64,000 nt of DNA from Chitinophagales bacterium (GTDB lineage Bacteria > Bacteroidota > Bacteroidia > Chitinophagales > Chitinophagaceae), in NCBI GenBank assembly GCA_015655015.1, contig JAATFV010000226.1, positions 1-64,000 of the forward strand, read 5' to 3'. Both the position numbers and the translations under genes were made by a program. Positions within the stretch are counted from its first letter, which is position 1; each line of letters starts with the position of its first letter. The notes under the pieces are model-generated. The model was given only the letters and a program-made list of their open reading frames with translations. It ran no database searches and was not told the DNA's origin. Positions 12,833-19,761 of this stretch are shown here, piece after piece.

Positions 12833-13396
12833 ATGCATGAAATAGAACCTTTTTATAACTGGCGCCACATCTATGTGAGTGAGGAGGACGAGCGATCGCC
12901 TTTCTACGGAAGGGTCTATTCGGAGTTTGAATTTTCCCAGACGATCTATAACTATTATATACATCCGCAATGGGATGATTTCGGTTCCAGGACCCTGTAC
13001 ATGAAAGTGCTGCTGGCCGATTACGAAGAGCACTATGTCATCATGGAGCTCTTCGGGGAATGGAATGATGCGATCGAGAATGATATCATGAACCTGAAAC
13101 GAGAAGTGGTGGACAAGTTCAATGATTTCGGCATTACCAAATACATCCTTATTGCAGAAAATGTGCTCAATTTTCATAGCGGGGACAAGGACTATTATGA
13201 GGAATGGTTTGAAGAAGTGACGGACGCGGACGGCTGGATCGCCATCCTCAATATGCCGGAACAAACGCAGCATGATTTCCGGAAAGCCAAGCTCAATCGC
13301 TTTATTGAACTGGTCGAACTGGCGAACTGGCGAACTTATAAGCCTTTTCACCTGTTCAAATTGATCGACGAGCAAATACTTCGGCGGCTGGATTAG
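12833..13396 (+). CDS. Conserved-looking hypothetical protein, 187 residues
   Basis: Not recognised. Soluble, acidic and rich in aromatic residues (YNYYIHPQWDDFGS, DGWIAILNMP), with no signal peptide or membrane segment. It follows murQ by 13 bp on the same strand, so it is probably in the recycling operon. Codon use matches its neighbours, which supports a real gene. Confidence 0.7.
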   Translation: MHEIEPFYNWRHIYVSEEDERSPFYGRVYSEFEFSQTIYNYYIHPQWDDFGSRTLYMKVLLADYEEHYVIMELFGEWNDAIENDIMNLKREVVDKFNDFGITKYILIAENVLNFHSGDKDYYEEWFEEVTDADGWIAILNMPEQTQHDFRKAKLNRFIELVELANWRTYKPFHLFKLIDEQILRRLD

Positions 13397-13455
13397 CTAT
13401 TTTCTAAAGTTTTGCGATTTGTCTAAAATAAATTTTATTTTTCCGGATAAGTCTT

Positions 13456-13463
13456 TACTTTTG
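13456..13463 (+). promoter_or_regulatory. -7 box before the aromatic leader peptide
   Basis: TACTTTTG matches TAnnTTTG and lies 8 bp before the leader ATG, predicting a very short 5' end. No good -33 TTTG was seen at the right distance. Confidence 0.45.
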
Positions 13464-13471
13464 ATATAACA

Positions 13472-13561
13472 ATGAACACAACAAAGGCATACAACTATTT
13501 TTATTTTAGCTTTTTTTTCTACTTTATCGGTAGACCGGGAATGCTTTTGTTAAAAAAATAG
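13472..13561 (+). CDS. Phe/Tyr-rich leader peptide of the aromatic operon
   Basis: A 29-codon frame (ATG 13472, TAG 13559-13561). Residues 7-18 read YNYFYFSFFFYF: six Phe and four Tyr among twelve codons. It lies 187 bp upstream of pheA, with aminotransferase and tyrA after it, and is followed by overlapping antiterminator and terminator segments. This is the classical design of a pheL-type attenuator peptide, whose translation senses charged tRNA-Phe and tRNA-Tyr. There is no obvious Shine-Dalgarno, which is normal here. Confidence 0.85.
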   Translation: MNTTKAYNYFYFSFFFYFIGRPGMLLLKK

Positions 13562-13616
13562 AAAACAAAAAATTAACATAAGAAGTCCCGGTCAAAAGCC
13601 GGGACTTTTCTTTTTT
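13533..13616 (+). promoter_or_regulatory. Transcription attenuator (antiterminator and terminator) for pheA-tyrA genes
   Basis: Terminator: AAGTCCCGG (13583-13591) pairs perfectly with CCGGGACTT (13599-13607), followed by a T-rich tract to 13616. Antiterminator: GACCGGGA (13533-13540), inside the leader codons just after the aromatic run, is exactly complementary to TCCCGGTC (13586-13593), the 5' arm of the terminator. A ribosome stalled at Phe/Tyr codons leaves 13533-13540 free to pair and blocks the terminator. A ribosome reaching the stop codon covers it and the terminator forms. The pairings are seen; the mechanism is inferred. Confidence 0.85.
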
Positions 13617-13658
13617 ACACACCCCCCGACCCCTAAAGGGGGAGTAAGAACAAAGACC

Positions 13659-14504
13659 ATGGAACAGGCAAAAAATGTAAAGGTTTCGATACAGGGCTAC
13701 GAAGGCAGCTTTCACCAGGTAGCGGCGCAGCAATTCTTCGGAAAGGACGTAGAAGTGGTTCCCTGTGCTACTTTCAAGGAAATGATCCGGGTCGCGGCCA
13801 GTAAAAAAGAGAGCGATGGGGGAGTGATGGCCATCGAAAATTCCATCGCCGGCAGCATTCTTCCGAATTACAATTTACTGCAGAAGAGCAATCTGCGGAT
13901 CGTAGGGGAGATCTATCTGCAGATCGGGCAGAACCTGCTGGTGAATCCCGGAGTAAAGCTGGAGGATATCCGCGAAGTGCATTCTCATTATATGGCTTTA
14001 TTGCAGTGTGTCGATTACCTGGAGAAACACCCGGGCTGGAAATTAGTGGAGACGGAGGATACGGCCCTGAGCGCCAGACACCTTCAGCAGCATCGCAGTA
14101 AACACACGGCGGCTATCGCCAGCACACTGGCGGCTGAACTGTTCGGACTTAGTGTCCTGGCTCCCAATATTCAGACGATGAAGAATAATTATACCCGGTT
14201 TCTCATCCTTCAACGCGAAGACCAGGCAGAGAAAGTGGAACATTCAGATAAAGCATCCGTAAATTTTCATACGGATCACTCCCGGGGAAGCCTGGCGCGG
14301 GTGCTGACAAAGATCGCAGACGGAGGGATCAACCTGAGCAAGCTGCAATCCTTCCCTATCCCGGGCAGTGACTGGGAATATTCCTTTCATGCCGACATGG
14401 AGTTCGATACGCTGGAGCAATTCGACAGGGTGATAGATTCTATACGGCCGATCACCGCTGAGCTGAAAGTGTATGGGATTTATAAAAAGGGGAAAACGGT
14501 ATAA
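13659..14504 (+). CDS. pheA: Prephenate dehydratase (PheA, dehydratase plus ACT domain)
   Basis: Converts prephenate to phenylpyruvate for Phe synthesis. The N-terminal part has QGYEGSFHQVAAQQFF, the core GGVMAIENSIAGSILPNY, and the catalytic NNYTRFLIL at about residues 173-181. A C-terminal ACT domain (about 195-275) should bind Phe, but the usual ESRP segment reads QSFP here. At 281 residues it is a monofunctional enzyme; chorismate mutase is on the DAHP synthase gene instead. First gene after the attenuator. Similar C-rich/G-rich stretches precede it (13621-13647) and follow it (14505-14532). Confidence 0.94.
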   Translation: MEQAKNVKVSIQGYEGSFHQVAAQQFFGKDVEVVPCATFKEMIRVAASKKESDGGVMAIENSIAGSILPNYNLLQKSNLRIVGEIYLQIGQNLLVNPGVKLEDIREVHSHYMALLQCVDYLEKHPGWKLVETEDTALSARHLQQHRSKHTAAIASTLAAELFGLSVLAPNIQTMKNNYTRFLILQREDQAEKVEHSDKASVNFHTDHSRGSLARVLTKIADGGINLSKLQSFPIPGSDWEYSFHADMEFDTLEQFDRVIDSIRPITAELKVYGIYKKGKTV

Positions 14505-14597
14505 CCCCCAGCCTCCGAAGGGAGAGTAAGATACGGGTGAAGATTTTTGAAAAAGACCGGATAATGATTTTTTGACATCGAATAAAAAGAATTGGAT

Positions 14598-15830
14598 ATG
14601 AAGACGGCAAAAAGACTGGATGGCATCGGAGAATATTATTTTTCCCAGAAGTTACGGGAGATCGAGGGACTGAACCGACAAGGGAAAAATATAATCAACC
14701 TGGGGATCGGGAGTCCGGACCTTCCCCCGCATCCGGATGTTATCCGCGTATTGCAGGAGGAAAGCGCCAAGCCTAATGTACACGCTTACCAATCCTACAA
14801 GGGCTCCCCGGTTCTCCGCAATGCGATTGCCGCCTGGTATCAGCAATGGTATGGGGTGGAGCTGAACCCGGAGTCCGAGATCCTTCCGCTGATCGGTTCC
14901 AAGGAAGGGATTATGCACATCTGCATGACATACCTGGATGAGGGGGATATCGCATTGGTCCCTAATCCCGGCTATCCTACCTACCGGAGCGCGGTGAAGC
15001 TGGCGGGTGGCGCCTGCGTGGAATATGAGCTGAAAAAGGAGAATAGCTGGTATCCTGATTTTGAGGAATTGGAGAAGGTGGTGGCTGCCGCGAATGGTCA
15101 GCAGGCTGGTAGCCAGGGATCGGGCCGCGGCACTGTCAAGCTGATGTGGGTGAACTATCCGCATATGCCGACCGGGCAATTACCTGACCGGGCGCTATTC
15201 GAAAAGTTAGTAGCCTTTGGGAACAAGCACCAGGTCCTGATCTGTCATGATAACCCTTATAGCTTTATCCTCAATGAGAGGCCGATGAGCCTGTTAAGCA
15301 TACCGGGGGCCAGGGATACGGTGATCGAGCTGAATTCCCTCAGTAAATCGCAGAATATGGCCGGCTGGCGGGTAGGGACTTTATCAGGAGCGAAGGACCG
15401 GATCGATGAAGTGCTGCGGTTTAAGAGCAATATGGACAGCGGTATGTTCCTGCCGGTGCAGCTGGCGGCTGCCAAAGCGCTGTCCCTGGGCAAGGACTGG
15501 TATGACAGTGTGAATGACGTATACCGGGAAAGGAGGATCAAGGTCTTTGAGCTGCTGGAATTGCTGGGGGGGGATTTTGACAAGGCCCAGGTGGGGATGT
15601 TTGTCTGGGCGGGGATCCCGGCGAAGTACAAAGATGGTTTTGACCTGAGCGACCAGGTGCTTTACGGGGCCGGTGTATTTATCACGCCCGGGGGCATTTT
15701 CGGTAAGGCCGGGGAAGGGTATATCCGGGTAAGCCTGTGCAGCAGCGGCGAGAAGCTGCAGGAGAGCATAGATCGCGTGAAGGCATTGCTCAGGGGAGCA
15801 AAATCAACGGAATCGGTGATTAATAATTAA
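14598..15830 (+). CDS. PLP-dependent aminotransferase, class I/II, probably aromatic
   Basis: Fold-type I aminotransferase of 410 residues. Recognisable parts are NLGIGSPDLPPHPDV, the cofactor region LIGSKEGIMHICMTYLD, CHDNPYSFIL, and the Schiff-base lysine in ELNSLSKSQNMAGWRVG. The frame also allows TTG at 14592, but ATG at 14598 is a better start. Between pheA and tyrA, it most likely transaminates phenylpyruvate and 4-hydroxyphenylpyruvate in the last step of Phe and Tyr synthesis. The fold is also used by aspartate and diaminopimelate aminotransferases, so specificity rests on context. Confidence 0.88.
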   Translation: MKTAKRLDGIGEYYFSQKLREIEGLNRQGKNIINLGIGSPDLPPHPDVIRVLQEESAKPNVHAYQSYKGSPVLRNAIAAWYQQWYGVELNPESEILPLIGSKEGIMHICMTYLDEGDIALVPNPGYPTYRSAVKLAGGACVEYELKKENSWYPDFEELEKVVAAANGQQAGSQGSGRGTVKLMWVNYPHMPTGQLPDRALFEKLVAFGNKHQVLICHDNPYSFILNERPMSLLSIPGARDTVIELNSLSKSQNMAGWRVGTLSGAKDRIDEVLRFKSNMDSGMFLPVQLAAAKALSLGKDWYDSVNDVYRERRIKVFELLELLGGDFDKAQVGMFVWAGIPAKYKDGFDLSDQVLYGAGVFITPGGIFGKAGEGYIRVSLCSSGEKLQESIDRVKALLRGAKSTESVINN

Positions 15831-15868: not shown

Positions 15869-16717
15869 ATGTTTGATTCAGTTACTATTGTCGGAGTAGG
15901 ATTGATCGGTGGTAGCTTTAGTCTCTCCCTGAAGGAGAGAGGACTTGTCAAAAATGTGATCGGGGTAGGCAATACGGCTTCGGGTATCAATAAGGCGCTG
16001 GAGCTGGGCCTGATCGACGAGACCCTGCCTTTGGAAGAGGCGGTAAAAAAGAGCGATCTCATTTACGTCGCTATTCCGGTGGATGTTACGGTACCGGTAA
16101 TGCGCCAGATCATGGATTGTATGACGGAAAAGCAGATCGTGGCAGATGCGGGCTCTACGAAACAGGCCCTGTGCGAGAGCCTTGCCGATCACCCGTTACG
16201 CCGGAGATTTGTGGCCAGCCACCCTATGTGGGGGACGGAATACAGCGGGCCGGAAGCTGCTGTCAGGGGGGCATTCGGGGGGCGAGCCTGTGTGATCTGC
16301 GAAAAGGAAAAGACGGATCCCGATGCGGTGGAGACCATGGAAAATATCTATAAGAGCCTGGGTATGCACATGGTCTATATGGATGCAGACAGCCATGACA
16401 TGCATGCGGCTTATATCAGCCATATCTCGCATATCACCTCCTTTGCCCTGGCGAATACGGTCCTGGAGAAGGAAAAAGAGGACAGCGCGATCTTCGAGCT
16501 GGCGGGCGGCGGTTTTGAAAGTACGGTGCGGCTGGCCAAGAGCAATCCGGCCATGTGGGGGCCTATTTTCAAGCAGAACCGGGAGCATGTGCTGGACGTT
16601 CTGAATGAGCATATCGCCCAGCTGAGAAAGTTCAAAAGCTGCCTGGAAAAAGAGAATTACGCCTACCTGCAGGAATTGATGGAAAATGCGAATAAGATCA
16701 GGAGGATCCTGAAATAG
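15869..16717 (+). CDS. tyrA: Prephenate dehydrogenase
   Basis: Oxidatively decarboxylates prephenate to 4-hydroxyphenylpyruvate for Tyr synthesis. The Rossmann motif VGVGLIGGSF is at residues 8-17; DAGSTKQAL and ASHPMWGTEYSGPEAA give the conserved catalytic His region. The C-terminal helical domain is complete at 282 residues. No ACT domain follows, so Tyr feedback through such a domain is not expected. It lies 38 bp after the aminotransferase and completes the attenuator-led segment. Confidence 0.94.
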   Translation: MFDSVTIVGVGLIGGSFSLSLKERGLVKNVIGVGNTASGINKALELGLIDETLPLEEAVKKSDLIYVAIPVDVTVPVMRQIMDCMTEKQIVADAGSTKQALCESLADHPLRRRFVASHPMWGTEYSGPEAAVRGAFGGRACVICEKEKTDPDAVETMENIYKSLGMHMVYMDADSHDMHAAYISHISHITSFALANTVLEKEKEDSAIFELAGGGFESTVRLAKSNPAMWGPIFKQNREHVLDVLNEHIAQLRKFKSCLEKENYAYLQELMENANKIRRILK

Positions 16718-16841: not shown

Positions 16842-18548
16842 ATGATGACATTTGAAGGGTTGGGTTTAGATGCCAGGCTGGTACAGGCTACCGACGCGCT
16901 GGGGTTTACAACACCGACACCCATTCAGGAGCAGGCAATTCCTGTTTTATTGAGCGGAACAAAGGATCTGGTAGGGTTGGCGCAGACAGGCACCGGAAAG
17001 ACGGCTGCTTTTGGCCTTCCGCTATTGCAGCTGGTGGACGAACACCAGAAACATCCACAGGCATTGGTGGTATGTCCGACCAGGGAATTATGCATGCAGA
17101 TCGTGACGGAAATAGAGCTTTTTAAGAAATTCATACCCGGGATCCATGTGATAGCGGTTTATGGAGGTACTTCCATAGGCCTGCAGATCAGGGACCTGAA
17201 ACGCGGAGTGCAGATCGTGGTGGCGACACCCGGTCGGTTGATCGACCTGATCGAGCGCAAGGCGATCAACCTGGAACAGATCCGGTATGTCGTGCTGGAC
17301 GAGGCGGATGAAATGCTGAATATGGGTTTCCAGGACGATATAGAGTTCATCTTGCAGAATACGCCCAAACGGGAAGCTACCTGGCTGTTCAGCGCCACGA
17401 TGCCTCCCGAGATCCGCCGGGTGAGCAAGAAGTACATGCAGACCCCTACGGAGATCACGGTAGGCAAGATGAATACGGCCAATAAGAACATCGATCACCA
17501 ATATTTTGTAGCGAATGCGCACCATCGCTATGAAACGCTGAAACGGATCATTGATTTTAATCCCGGTATTTACGGGATCATTTTCACCCGTACCAAGATC
17601 GATGCACAGAATATTGCAGAAAAGCTGACCCGCGAGGGATACGATATAGATGCGCTGCACGGGGATCTTACCCAGCAGCAGCGTGACAAGGTGATGGGGG
17701 AATTCCGGGAAAAGCAATTACAGCTGCTGATCGCCACCGATGTGGCAGCCAGGGGGATCGATGTGAAGGAGATCACGCATGTGATCAATTACGAATTGCC
17801 GGACGATATGGAAGTGTACACACACCGGACCGGTCGTACGGGAAGGGCCGGGCATACGGGGATCGCTTTATCCATCGTGCATAGCCGGGAAATAGGTAAG
17901 CTGAGGCAGATCGAACGGATCGTACAGTCGCCTTTCCACAAGATGGAAATACCGAGCGGAAAAGACGTATGCCGCAAGCAGTTCTTTCATTTTATGGAGA
18001 AGCTGCTGCAGACCGATATCAGCCATGGAGACTACGAAAGTTATGTCCCTATGCTGGCTGAGAAGTTTGCGGATGTCAGTAAAGAAGATGTATTGAAACG
18101 GGTGGCGGCTATGGAGTTCGACCGTTTCCTGAAATATTACGAAAATGCGGAAGACCTGAATGTCCGGGAAAGGACCCGGGAATATGGCACCAGGGAACGG
18201 GATCCGCGCGGACCCGGACCCGGCAGTGATCGCAGAGAGTATGGCCGCCGGGGAGACGCACCCGCAGGAAGGGAAAGAACGACCGCCAGGGATTATGCCA
18301 GCAATGGGGAATATGCCAGGCTGTTCGTCAACCTGGGAACGAAGGATGGGTTCTATAAGGCCAGTTTCCTGCAGTTCATCCTGGATATGAGCGACCTGAA
18401 GAAAGAAGTGCTGGGCCGGATCGACATGAAGGAAATGAACAGCTGGATCGAGGTGGATAAGAAGTCCGCGCCGCAGATGATCCGGGCTATTGACGGGAAG
18501 AACTATAAGGGCAGACGTATCCGGATGAACGATGCGAACAGCCGGTAG
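16842..18548 (+). CDS. DEAD-box RNA helicase with DbpA-like RNA-binding C-terminus
   Basis: ATP-dependent RNA helicase of 568 residues. The motifs are in order: FTTPTPIQEQAIP (Q motif), AQTGTGKTAAFGLP (I), VLDEADEMLNMGF (II), LFSATMP (III), IIFTRTK (IV) and HRTGRTGRAG (VI). A basic Arg/Gly-rich linker (about residues 440-490) leads to a DbpA-type RRM (LFVNLGTKDGFYKASFL onward), which suggests rRNA or structured RNA targets. Two ATGs (16842, 16845) are possible. It has no pathway link to the aro genes around it. Confidence 0.94.
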   Translation: MMTFEGLGLDARLVQATDALGFTTPTPIQEQAIPVLLSGTKDLVGLAQTGTGKTAAFGLPLLQLVDEHQKHPQALVVCPTRELCMQIVTEIELFKKFIPGIHVIAVYGGTSIGLQIRDLKRGVQIVVATPGRLIDLIERKAINLEQIRYVVLDEADEMLNMGFQDDIEFILQNTPKREATWLFSATMPPEIRRVSKKYMQTPTEITVGKMNTANKNIDHQYFVANAHHRYETLKRIIDFNPGIYGIIFTRTKIDAQNIAEKLTREGYDIDALHGDLTQQQRDKVMGEFREKQLQLLIATDVAARGIDVKEITHVINYELPDDMEVYTHRTGRTGRAGHTGIALSIVHSREIGKLRQIERIVQSPFHKMEIPSGKDVCRKQFFHFMEKLLQTDISHGDYESYVPMLAEKFADVSKEDVLKRVAAMEFDRFLKYYENAEDLNVRERTREYGTRERDPRGPGPGSDRREYGRRGDAPAGRERTTARDYASNGEYARLFVNLGTKDGFYKASFLQFILDMSDLKKEVLGRIDMKEMNSWIEVDKKSAPQMIRAIDGKNYKGRRIRMNDANSR

Positions 18549-18669: not shown

Positions 18670-19761
18670 ATGGAAGCGACAGCAACTAAGAACGCGAAAG
18701 AGATCACACAGGCAGCCTGGAACAAACGCCCCCTGGTGATCTCTGGTCCCTGCAGTGCGGAGACCGAAGAGCAGGTAATGGAAACGGCTACCCGTCTGGC
18801 AGCTACCGGTAAAGTAGATATGCTGCGCGCCGGTATCTGGAAGCCCCGGACCCGTCCCGGCAGCTTTGAAGGGATTGGCACCAAAGGATTGCCCTGGTTG
18901 CAGCAGGCCCGGAAAAAGACCGGTCTGCCCGTTGCCATCGAAGTAGCTACCGGCAAGCAGGTGGAAGATGCGCTCCATTTCGATATCGATGTGTTATGGA
19001 TCGGCGCCCGCACTACGGTAAACCCGTTCAGTGTCCAGGAAGTGGCGGATGCCCTGCGCGGGGTCGATGTTCCTGTGCTGGTCAAGAACCCCATCAACCC
19101 TGACCTGGAACTGTGGACAGGCGCTGTGGAAAGGGTCGCTAAAGCAGGTATCAAACAGTTAGGGTTGATCCACCGGGGATTCAGCTCCTATGGCAATACA
19201 GAATACCGGAATGCTCCCATGTGGCATCTGGCTATCGAGATGAAGCGGCGCAATCCCGGGCTGATGATGATCAATGATCCTTCCCATATCAGCGGCCGCC
19301 GGGACATCCTGCTGGATGTAGCGCAGAAAGCGATCGACCTGGATTTCGACGGACTGATCATTGAGAGCCATATCGACCCGGATAAGGCATGGAGCGACGC
19401 CAAGCAGCAAATCACCCCGGAACGCCTCGCTGAATTGCTGGACAGCATCAAATGGCGCCATGAAACTACTACGGAAAAGGAATTTATCACTGCGCTGGAA
19501 AAACTCCGCGAACAGATCAACCATATTGACGATGAGCTGATGCAGCTGCTCGGCCAGCGTATGAAGATCGCCGATAAGATCGGGGAATACAAACGCGACA
19601 ACAATATCACCATCCTGCAGACCAATCGCTGGAACGCTATTCTGGAAAGGGCTTTCGTGAAGGGAGAGAAGCTGGGATTGGGCAAGGAGTTCATCACGAA
19701 GTATTATGATGCCGTGCATATGGAATCTATCGGCCATCAGAACAAGATCATGAATTCATAG
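18670..19761 (+). CDS. Bifunctional DAHP synthase / chorismate mutase (type II)
   Basis: First step of the shikimate pathway fused to chorismate mutase. Residues 1-260 are a type I-beta (KDO8P-like) DAHP synthase: LVISGPCSAETEEQV, MLRAGIWKPRTRPGSF, IGARTTVNPFSVQ, INDPSHISGRRD. Residues about 270-360 are an AroQ-type mutase (LREQINHIDDELMQLLGQRM onward). The fusion explains why pheA and tyrA lack mutase domains. It is followed after only 8 bp by the transposase-like gene and then aroB, so the string to aroC may be one transcript. Allosteric control of the synthase through the mutase domain is known in the family. Confidence 0.94.
   Translation: MEATATKNAKEITQAAWNKRPLVISGPCSAETEEQVMETATRLAATGKVDMLRAGIWKPRTRPGSFEGIGTKGLPWLQQARKKTGLPVAIEVATGKQVEDALHFDIDVLWIGARTTVNPFSVQEVADALRGVDVPVLVKNPINPDLELWTGAVERVAKAGIKQLGLIHRGFSSYGNTEYRNAPMWHLAIEMKRRNPGLMMINDPSHISGRRDILLDVAQKAIDLDFDGLIIESHIDPDKAWSDAKQQITPERLAELLDSIKWRHETTTEKEFITALEKLREQINHIDDELMQLLGQRMKIADKIGEYKRDNNITILQTNRWNAILERAFVKGEKLGLGKEFITKYYDAVHMESIGHQNKIMNS

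Follow-up and report, generated by a model that had tools for sequence, protein, structure and literature searches.

The window, as we call the whole 64,000-nucleotide stretch of DNA analysed here, lies on contig C151 of an 8.1-Mb genome. The nearest organism-named relatives of its PheA include those of Flavitalea sp. BT771 (87%) and Puia dinghuensis (84%), followed by Niastella, Flavihumibacter and others. Puia belongs to the Chitinophagaceae, whose class we take to be Bacteroidia in GTDB; family and class are used here as GTDB ranks relative to the window. The genes from pheA onward are arranged as follows.

13659-14504, plus strand: pheA, prephenate dehydratase (PF00800)
14592-15830, plus strand: class I/II aminotransferase, presumed second gene of the operon (PF00155)
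15869-16717, plus strand: tyrA, prephenate dehydrogenase (NF006307, above its cut-off)
16842-18548, plus strand: DEAD-box RNA helicase with a DbpA RNA-binding domain, between tyrA and aroF-CM (domain matches)
18670-19761, plus strand: DAHP synthase-chorismate mutase fusion, aroF-CM (PF00793 and PF01817)

Upstream of pheA the following elements were recognized.

13456-13463, plus strand: -7 promoter box TACTTTTG of the Bacteroidota type TAnnTTTG (box conservation), with a predicted transcription start site at 13468
13472-13561, plus strand: leader peptide ORF of 29 codons and a TAG stop, MNTTKAYNYFYFSFFFYFIGRPGMLLLKK, without a Shine-Dalgarno (SD) sequence (sequence re-read, ORF list, conserved in relatives)
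13480-13490, plus strand: region 1 (AACAAAGGCAT), which pairs with 13541-13551 to give the protecting stem 1:2 (folding)
13490-13525, plus strand: sensing run, residues 7-18 of the leader, with six Phe and four Tyr codons
13533-13553, plus strand: region 2, the 5' half of the antiterminator, GACCGGGA plus a distal arm (folding, covariation, shuffle tests)
13573-13593, plus strand: region 3, the 3' half of the antiterminator, which shares bases with the terminator's 5' arm (folding, alignment)
13581-13609, plus strand: intrinsic terminator hairpin 3:4 of 12 pairs with the loop CAAAA (folding, terminator scan, alignment)
13606-13616, plus strand: T-rich terminator tail, which shares bases with the end of the hairpin's 3' arm (sequence, terminator scan)

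The original prediction for this DNA described an attenuator with a 29-codon leader peptide and ten aromatic codons in residues 7-18, and re-reading of the sequence confirmed it. Phe occupies residues 10, 12, 14, 15, 16 and 18 and Tyr residues 7, 9, 11 and 17, the two being interleaved within the run. Thus a short ORF with a run of end-product codons lies near the 5' end, and its translation is predicted. The pairing proposed for the RNA was also correct. GACCGGGA at 13533-13540 is exactly complementary to TCCCGGTC at 13586-13593, and these eight pairs are the first of 17 in the antiterminator (13533-13593). The terminator, first placed at 13583-13607, is borne out between the leader ORF and the first structural gene, and can be extended to the 12 pairs and T-rich tail given above. 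Stem 1:2 is an addition to the elements first proposed, and with it the folded window holds a complete set of stems 1:2, 2:3 and 3:4. The antiterminator (-20.2 kcal/mol, z -6.1) and the terminator (-16.5 kcal/mol, z -5.9) were each matched by 0/200 shuffles, in stretches that had been picked for their pairing. Between 12800 and 20300 there are 12 terminator-like sites, where shuffles expect 7.6, and the one in the pheA leader has the most pairs. A palindrome, CCCCTAAAGGGG, at 13630-13641 is present in a single copy in the window, a frequency expected by chance.

PheA was searched in four overlapping samples: 58 near-relative genomes (40 matches), 147 family genomes (107 matches), 296 class genomes (90 matches) and 296 phylum genomes (258 matches). 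The nearest set was made from the best 30 of the 40 matches listed, namely the window itself, 28 loci of the same genus and one of the same family; L025, at a contig end with no upstream sequence, was dropped, leaving 29 loci. The family set comprised upstream DNA at 60 of the 103 other family genomes with a PheA match. The class/order set (n=60) combined 57 of the 84 class matches outside the family, the most distant omitted, with three order matches. An outside-class set of 20 was chosen among the matches listed, restricted to PheA of normal length with fused proteins omitted. A leader ORF was scored when it had at least five, or at the stricter threshold at least six, Phe or Tyr in 12 residues.

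The peptide, whose loss in relatives would speak against an attenuator, is kept by them. At the threshold of five, a leader ORF was found in 29/29 nearest loci (window included), 58/60 family loci and 47/60 class/order loci; at six the counts were 29/29, 58/60 and 44/60. At six, 130 of the 131 leaders contain at least two Phe and at least two Tyr, with means of 5.6 Phe and 3.9 Tyr, and all 80 loci of an organism-named set, partly repeats of the same species, pass the same threshold. A leader ORF (at least five) was present in 105/120 further loci compared with 10-18/120 in 20 mononucleotide shuffles, and an F/Y-rich ORF turned up in 37/120 reverse-complement controls. Given these control frequencies, an ORF by itself is a weak indication, and more weight falls on the tests of pairing.

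Thirteen of the 60 class/order loci lack a leader ORF at the threshold of five, and in two of these a minimal YFWFY leader was visible by eye. In L105 and L107, from one family, the leader is reduced to MKLTQTYFWFYP..., with five aromatic codons, Trp among them, and a terminator-like hairpin comes after it. All six loci from one family, f32 (L104, L108, L116, L120, L122 and L137), have PheA and no leader at threshold. Outside the class a leader (at least five) was found in only three of the 20 loci chosen among the matches listed (L238, L239 and L240), which may reflect either horizontal transfer of the unit or mis-binned contigs. PheA of these three loci is the closest to that of the window among the 20 (63, 51 and 44% identity).

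Pairing was tested by comparing the antiterminator and stem 1:2 duplexes of each locus with 60 dinucleotide shuffles. The antiterminator test covered 125 of 149 loci. Fifteen were left out for want of a leader ORF at the threshold of five, and nine (L002, L003, L037, L045, L048, L049, L053, L057 and L142) because they gave no usable hairpin pick: either the T run was missing or the hairpin stood within 12 nt of the aromatic run. In L002, L003, L037 and L048 a leader and hairpin are present by eye despite the failed automatic pick. The antiterminator beat its shuffles (p<=0.05) in 114/125 testable loci: 26/27 nearest, 51/52 family and 37/46 class/order. In the overlapping organism-named set it did so in 63/66. 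Relatives therefore keep the antiterminator pairing as well as the peptide. Stem 1:2 beat its shuffles in 22/27 nearest, 23/52 family and 9/46 class/order loci.

Covarying stems, the proposed sign of a conserved structure, were found for two of the three stems. Among 29 aligned leaders, the terminator is paired in 96.2% of cells and four of its pairs change on both sides. The antiterminator is paired in 89.0% of cells of the same alignment. At one of its pairs, 17 of 27 sequences have A-U and 8 have G-C, while in 2 the pair is broken. The 3' base of this covarying pair also belongs to the terminator, where it mostly stands opposite G. As U and C can each pair with G, only the antiterminator accounts for the change on the 5' side. 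Stem 1:2, paired in 87.4% of cells at 29 aligned loci, shows no compensatory change, and it pairs no better than column shuffles, 72/500 of which scored as high. Covariation therefore does not prove stem 1:2. We conclude from these comparisons that stems 2:3 and 3:4 are general and stem 1:2 probably a local feature. The joint retention of leader ORF, antiterminator and terminator across relatives gives good support to the pheL/trpL-type design that was originally proposed. In L002, L003, L004, L037 and L048 the terminator hairpin has a poor T run and lies almost against the start codon of pheA; this hairpin might block translation as well as transcription.

The nearest loci share a strongly conserved peptide (KAYRYFYF...RPGMLLL), as would be expected if the nascent FY-rich chain itself stalled the ribosome, in the manner of TnaC or SecM, or if a functional small protein acted in trans. 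The tail of the peptide does not fit this reading. The motif CCGGG of region 2, between the run and the terminator, lies inside the ORF in 27/28 nearest, 38/58 family and 12/44 class/order leaders, and is read in frames 0/1/2 in 25/1/1, 24/4/10 and 2/0/10 of them, respectively. The resulting tails include RPGMLLL, RAGNALL, SRESFC and RVVFAKA. Because CCGGG is read in all three frames among relatives, it is the RNA and not the peptide that is constrained at region 2. Tails are read in three frames or shortened while the RNA motif stays, Phe and Tyr swap at the same codon positions within the run, and the length of the run varies. Peptide-specific arrest or a small-protein function is therefore very unlikely as the explanation of the element. 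An additional role of the leader peptide in trans may exist by analogy with peTrpL of Sinorhizobium meliloti, for which excerpts of PMC7298713 provide a precedent.

A promoter in front of the leader ORF is predicted from the -7 box. According to the text available from PMC9723704, the TAnnTTTG box of F. psychrophilum lies at -12 to -5 from the transcription start. With the window's box at 13456-13463 placed in the same way, transcription is predicted to start at 13468 with a 5' UTR of 4 nt, and the short, SD-less 5' end of the original prediction holds as a prediction. In 67/87 loci of the nearest and family sets the end of a strict TAnnTTTG lies 3-12 nt upstream of the leader ATG, compared with 3, 1, 0, 0 and 0 in upstream-shifted control windows. 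For the class/order set this distance is 13-35 nt in 21/44 (controls 4, 2, 1 and 0) and 3-12 nt in two. A looser form of the motif was found in 29/29, 48/58 and 28/44 loci of the three sets, with median gaps that predict 5' UTRs of about 5, 3 and 15 nt. Among 30 larger window ORFs that have 60 nt or more of free upstream sequence, seven have any TAnnTTTG within 160 nt and none has one within 12 nt. SD-like motifs in the 20 nt 5' of the leader ATG occur in 2/87 nearest and family loci and in 1/44 class/order loci. Excerpts of the same paper state that Flavobacteria start translation without SD sequences and that leaderless mRNAs make up 5.5% of 890 mRNAs in F. psychrophilum (PMC9723704), and 5' UTRs below 10 nt are given as about 3.7% in B. 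thetaiotaomicron in part of PMC7366714.

The position of this box bears on a second alternative, in which the terminator serves the upstream gene (12833-13396), pheA has its own promoter after the terminator and the peptide-like ORF is accidental. Intergenic terminators are common, and the 37/120 reverse-complement controls show that F/Y-rich ORFs arise in AT-rich DNA. Against this, the box precedes the ORF in the 67/87 loci, and the ORF, its F/Y content and the antiterminator are conserved together. A pheA promoter 3' of the terminator was looked for as well. No strict TAnnTTTG lies there in the window or, from the hairpin to the first PheA-matching base, in any of 130 loci, although promoters of other types are possible. 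This space is shorter than 35 nt in 64/130 loci, and in L002, L003, L037 and L048 no more than about 15 nt separate the hairpin from the ATG of pheA. The alternative is extremely improbable. Two side observations concern the promoter regions. A motif ATAAGTC/GAGAAGTC, at about 13447-13453 just 5' of the -7 box, recurs by eye in many near relatives and could be part of the promoter or an operator. The DEAD-box helicase gene at 16842-18548 has a TAnnTTTG box 19 nt 5' of its ATG; an RNA helicase is also an odd member of an attenuated operon.

The effect of ribosome position was modelled by folding cut transcripts, which end just after region 3, with the RNA behind the ribosome ignored. In the window the probability of the antiterminator is 0.72-0.73 with the A-site up to residue 17 and 0.55 at residue 18, the last Phe. 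Past residue 18 it falls to 0.27, 0.21 and 0.01, and then to 0 at the stop codon. Thus the permissive stretch and the aromatic run end at the same place in the window. In 111/130 leaders (26/28 nearest, 50/58 family and 35/44 class/order) the mean probability exceeds 0.5 on aromatic codons and is below 0.2 at the stop; the low scorers L003, L037, L045, L048, L049, L053 and L057 were kept as failures. With a ribosome leading edge of 10, 13 and 16 nt, respectively, a stall at either the first Phe or the first Tyr is permissive by itself in 127, 127 and 123 of 130 leaders, and the leader is in addition closed at the stop in 111, 116 and 116. The aromatic run lies one ribosome footprint 5' of region 2, the median distance from the last aromatic codon to the antiterminator being 9, 10 and 12 nt in the nearest, family and class/order sets.

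The antiterminator and terminator exclude each other, and the switch from an open state on the run to a blocked state at the stop was seen on the cut transcript but not at full-length equilibrium. When the full leader was folded to equilibrium, the terminator won at every ribosome position in the window (probability 0.85-0.98), and a switch was seen in only 7/28 nearest and 5/58 family leaders of the two sets so folded. The switch would therefore depend on the antiterminator forming before region 4 is made. Without a ribosome the cut transcript also favours the antiterminator, with a probability of 0.72 in the window and values below 0.5 in only 1/28, 5/58 and 10/44 leaders, so that termination without translation would rely on stem 1:2 forming first. 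According to these folding models the device would have to work by order of events, as classic attenuators do. Alternative stems before an amino-acid operon might also belong to a T-box or another translation-independent riboswitch for uncharged tRNA or free amino acid, but with no Rfam family at its gathering score in the window, no T-box among 16 matches at E<=1 and an aromatic run one footprint before region 2, the likelihood of such an element is negligible. T-box identity was rejected, as no covariance model for it matched in the window.

These results make it highly likely that the element is a ribosome-mediated transcription attenuator with joint sensing of charged tRNA-Phe and tRNA-Tyr. 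For the start site, the stalling, the termination and the coupling we infer the following course. RNA polymerase would start about 4 nt 5' of the leader AUG, and a ribosome would load without an SD sequence. When either tRNA is scarce, the ribosome would stall on one of the interleaved Phe/Tyr codons and leave region 2 free. Region 2 would then pair with region 3 as soon as this is made, the terminator would be blocked, and pheA, the aminotransferase, tyrA and probably further genes would be transcribed. When both tRNAs are plentiful, the ribosome would reach the stop codon and cover region 2, stem 3:4 would form and transcription would end near 13616. With Phe and Tyr codons alternating within the permissive stretch, and a stall at either the first Phe or the first Tyr being permissive on its own, the leader is read as an OR gate in which shortage of either amino acid suffices. 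Gene order suggests that attenuator control may extend over the whole operon.

More tentatively, and with rather less than even confidence, we suggest a common history for these leaders. One ancestral Phe/Tyr OR-gate attenuator may have been carried with pheA through much of the class. In the Chitinophagaceae the promoter may have come to lie so near that ribosomes can bind the almost leaderless RNA immediately, through selection on how soon they arrive in bacteria that initiate without SD sequences. If this is true, the leaders would be comparative evidence for tight transcription-translation coupling in Bacteroidota.

Attenuation of this kind has well-known counterparts. The enterobacterial pheA gene is preceded by a Phe-rich leader peptide and an antiterminator that competes with a terminator. 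The leader peptides of E. coli thrABC (Thr/Ile) and ilvGMEDA (Ile/Val/Leu) are multivalent, and there, too, a single run covers several amino acids from a branched pathway, these being Phe and Tyr in the window. The window shares its general layout with the enterobacterial attenuator (pheL; Rfam RF01859, Phe_leader), but has nearly as many Tyr as Phe codons, tyrA in the same gene row, no SD sequence and a predicted 5' UTR of 4 nt. By the Rfam standard it is not a member of RF01859, scoring 34.5 bits at 13483-13614, below the gathering score of 55, and among 20 relatives four matched at E<=0.1 with a best score of 36.0 bits. According to excerpts of PMC7298713, the S. meliloti trpL attenuator has its leader ORF right at the RNA's 5' end. 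That leader is for Trp, alphaproteobacterial and exactly leaderless, whereas about 3-5 nt are predicted in the window's family.

Within the phylum, the closest report is that on F. psychrophilum (PMC9723704, 2021), which in its available text speaks of "strong clues" for leader-peptide attenuation before amino-acid operons and of 5' elements upstream of pheA and hisG, the pheA element being conserved in Flavobacteriaceae. This is the same gene with a structured 5' region in the same phylum as the window. The passages on the pheA element mention neither a peptide nor Phe/Tyr sensing, and give its distribution within Flavobacteriaceae only. Leader-peptide-like sORFs in long 5' UTRs are mentioned in part of PMC7366714, and the excerpts of PMC4833913, PMC1262725 and PMC8305728 describe no such leader. 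In the literature found, chiefly the partial texts of PMC9723704 and PMC7366714, attenuation in Bacteroidota is mentioned only in passing. The novelty for Bacteroidota thus stands in part. No paper on a dual Phe/Tyr leader or its distribution was found in the literature searched, although an earlier prediction in the survey of Lopatovskaya et al. 2010 is possible, but the available Flavobacterium text already hints at leaders and at a pheA element. The mechanism class is old, and from its sequence features this is very probably a real and working attenuator. As far as seen, three things are new: a leader run for both Phe and Tyr, its nearly leaderless start in one family and its distribution through the class.

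For leader-peptide attenuation to work, a ribosome has to keep close behind the polymerase from the first codons. A widespread conserved attenuator therefore makes coupling in the phylum directly testable, the ratio of short terminated RNA to pheA mRNA being an in-built reporter. The predicted 5' UTRs of about 3-5 nt in one family and about 15 nt elsewhere form a natural series for the timing of ribosome recruitment on leaderless and short-UTR mRNAs. In practical terms, the analysis supplies many genomes with both a small gene and a regulator of pheA.

Other amino-acid operons of the same genome were inspected. The ilvD-family loci L234 and L235 have no leader by eye, and a search for the LeuA-dimer family found no gene. 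Two further leaders were recognized.

L231:1195-1315: His leader MKISRHHHHHYFFLPEG, upstream of hisG at C151:78623, with a terminator and alternative stems
L232:1246-1360: Trp leader MNKQSINQQWWWHTNSERGK, upstream of trpE at C151:91952, with the terminator GGCCCCGATAATTCGGGGCC, a T run and a competing stem

A box, TATTTTTG, lies 10 nt before the ATG of the His leader, and an imperfect one, CATATTTG, 7 nt before that of the Trp leader. Judged by these sequences, the genome appears to use the leader-attenuator design at least three times, for Phe/Tyr, His and Trp.
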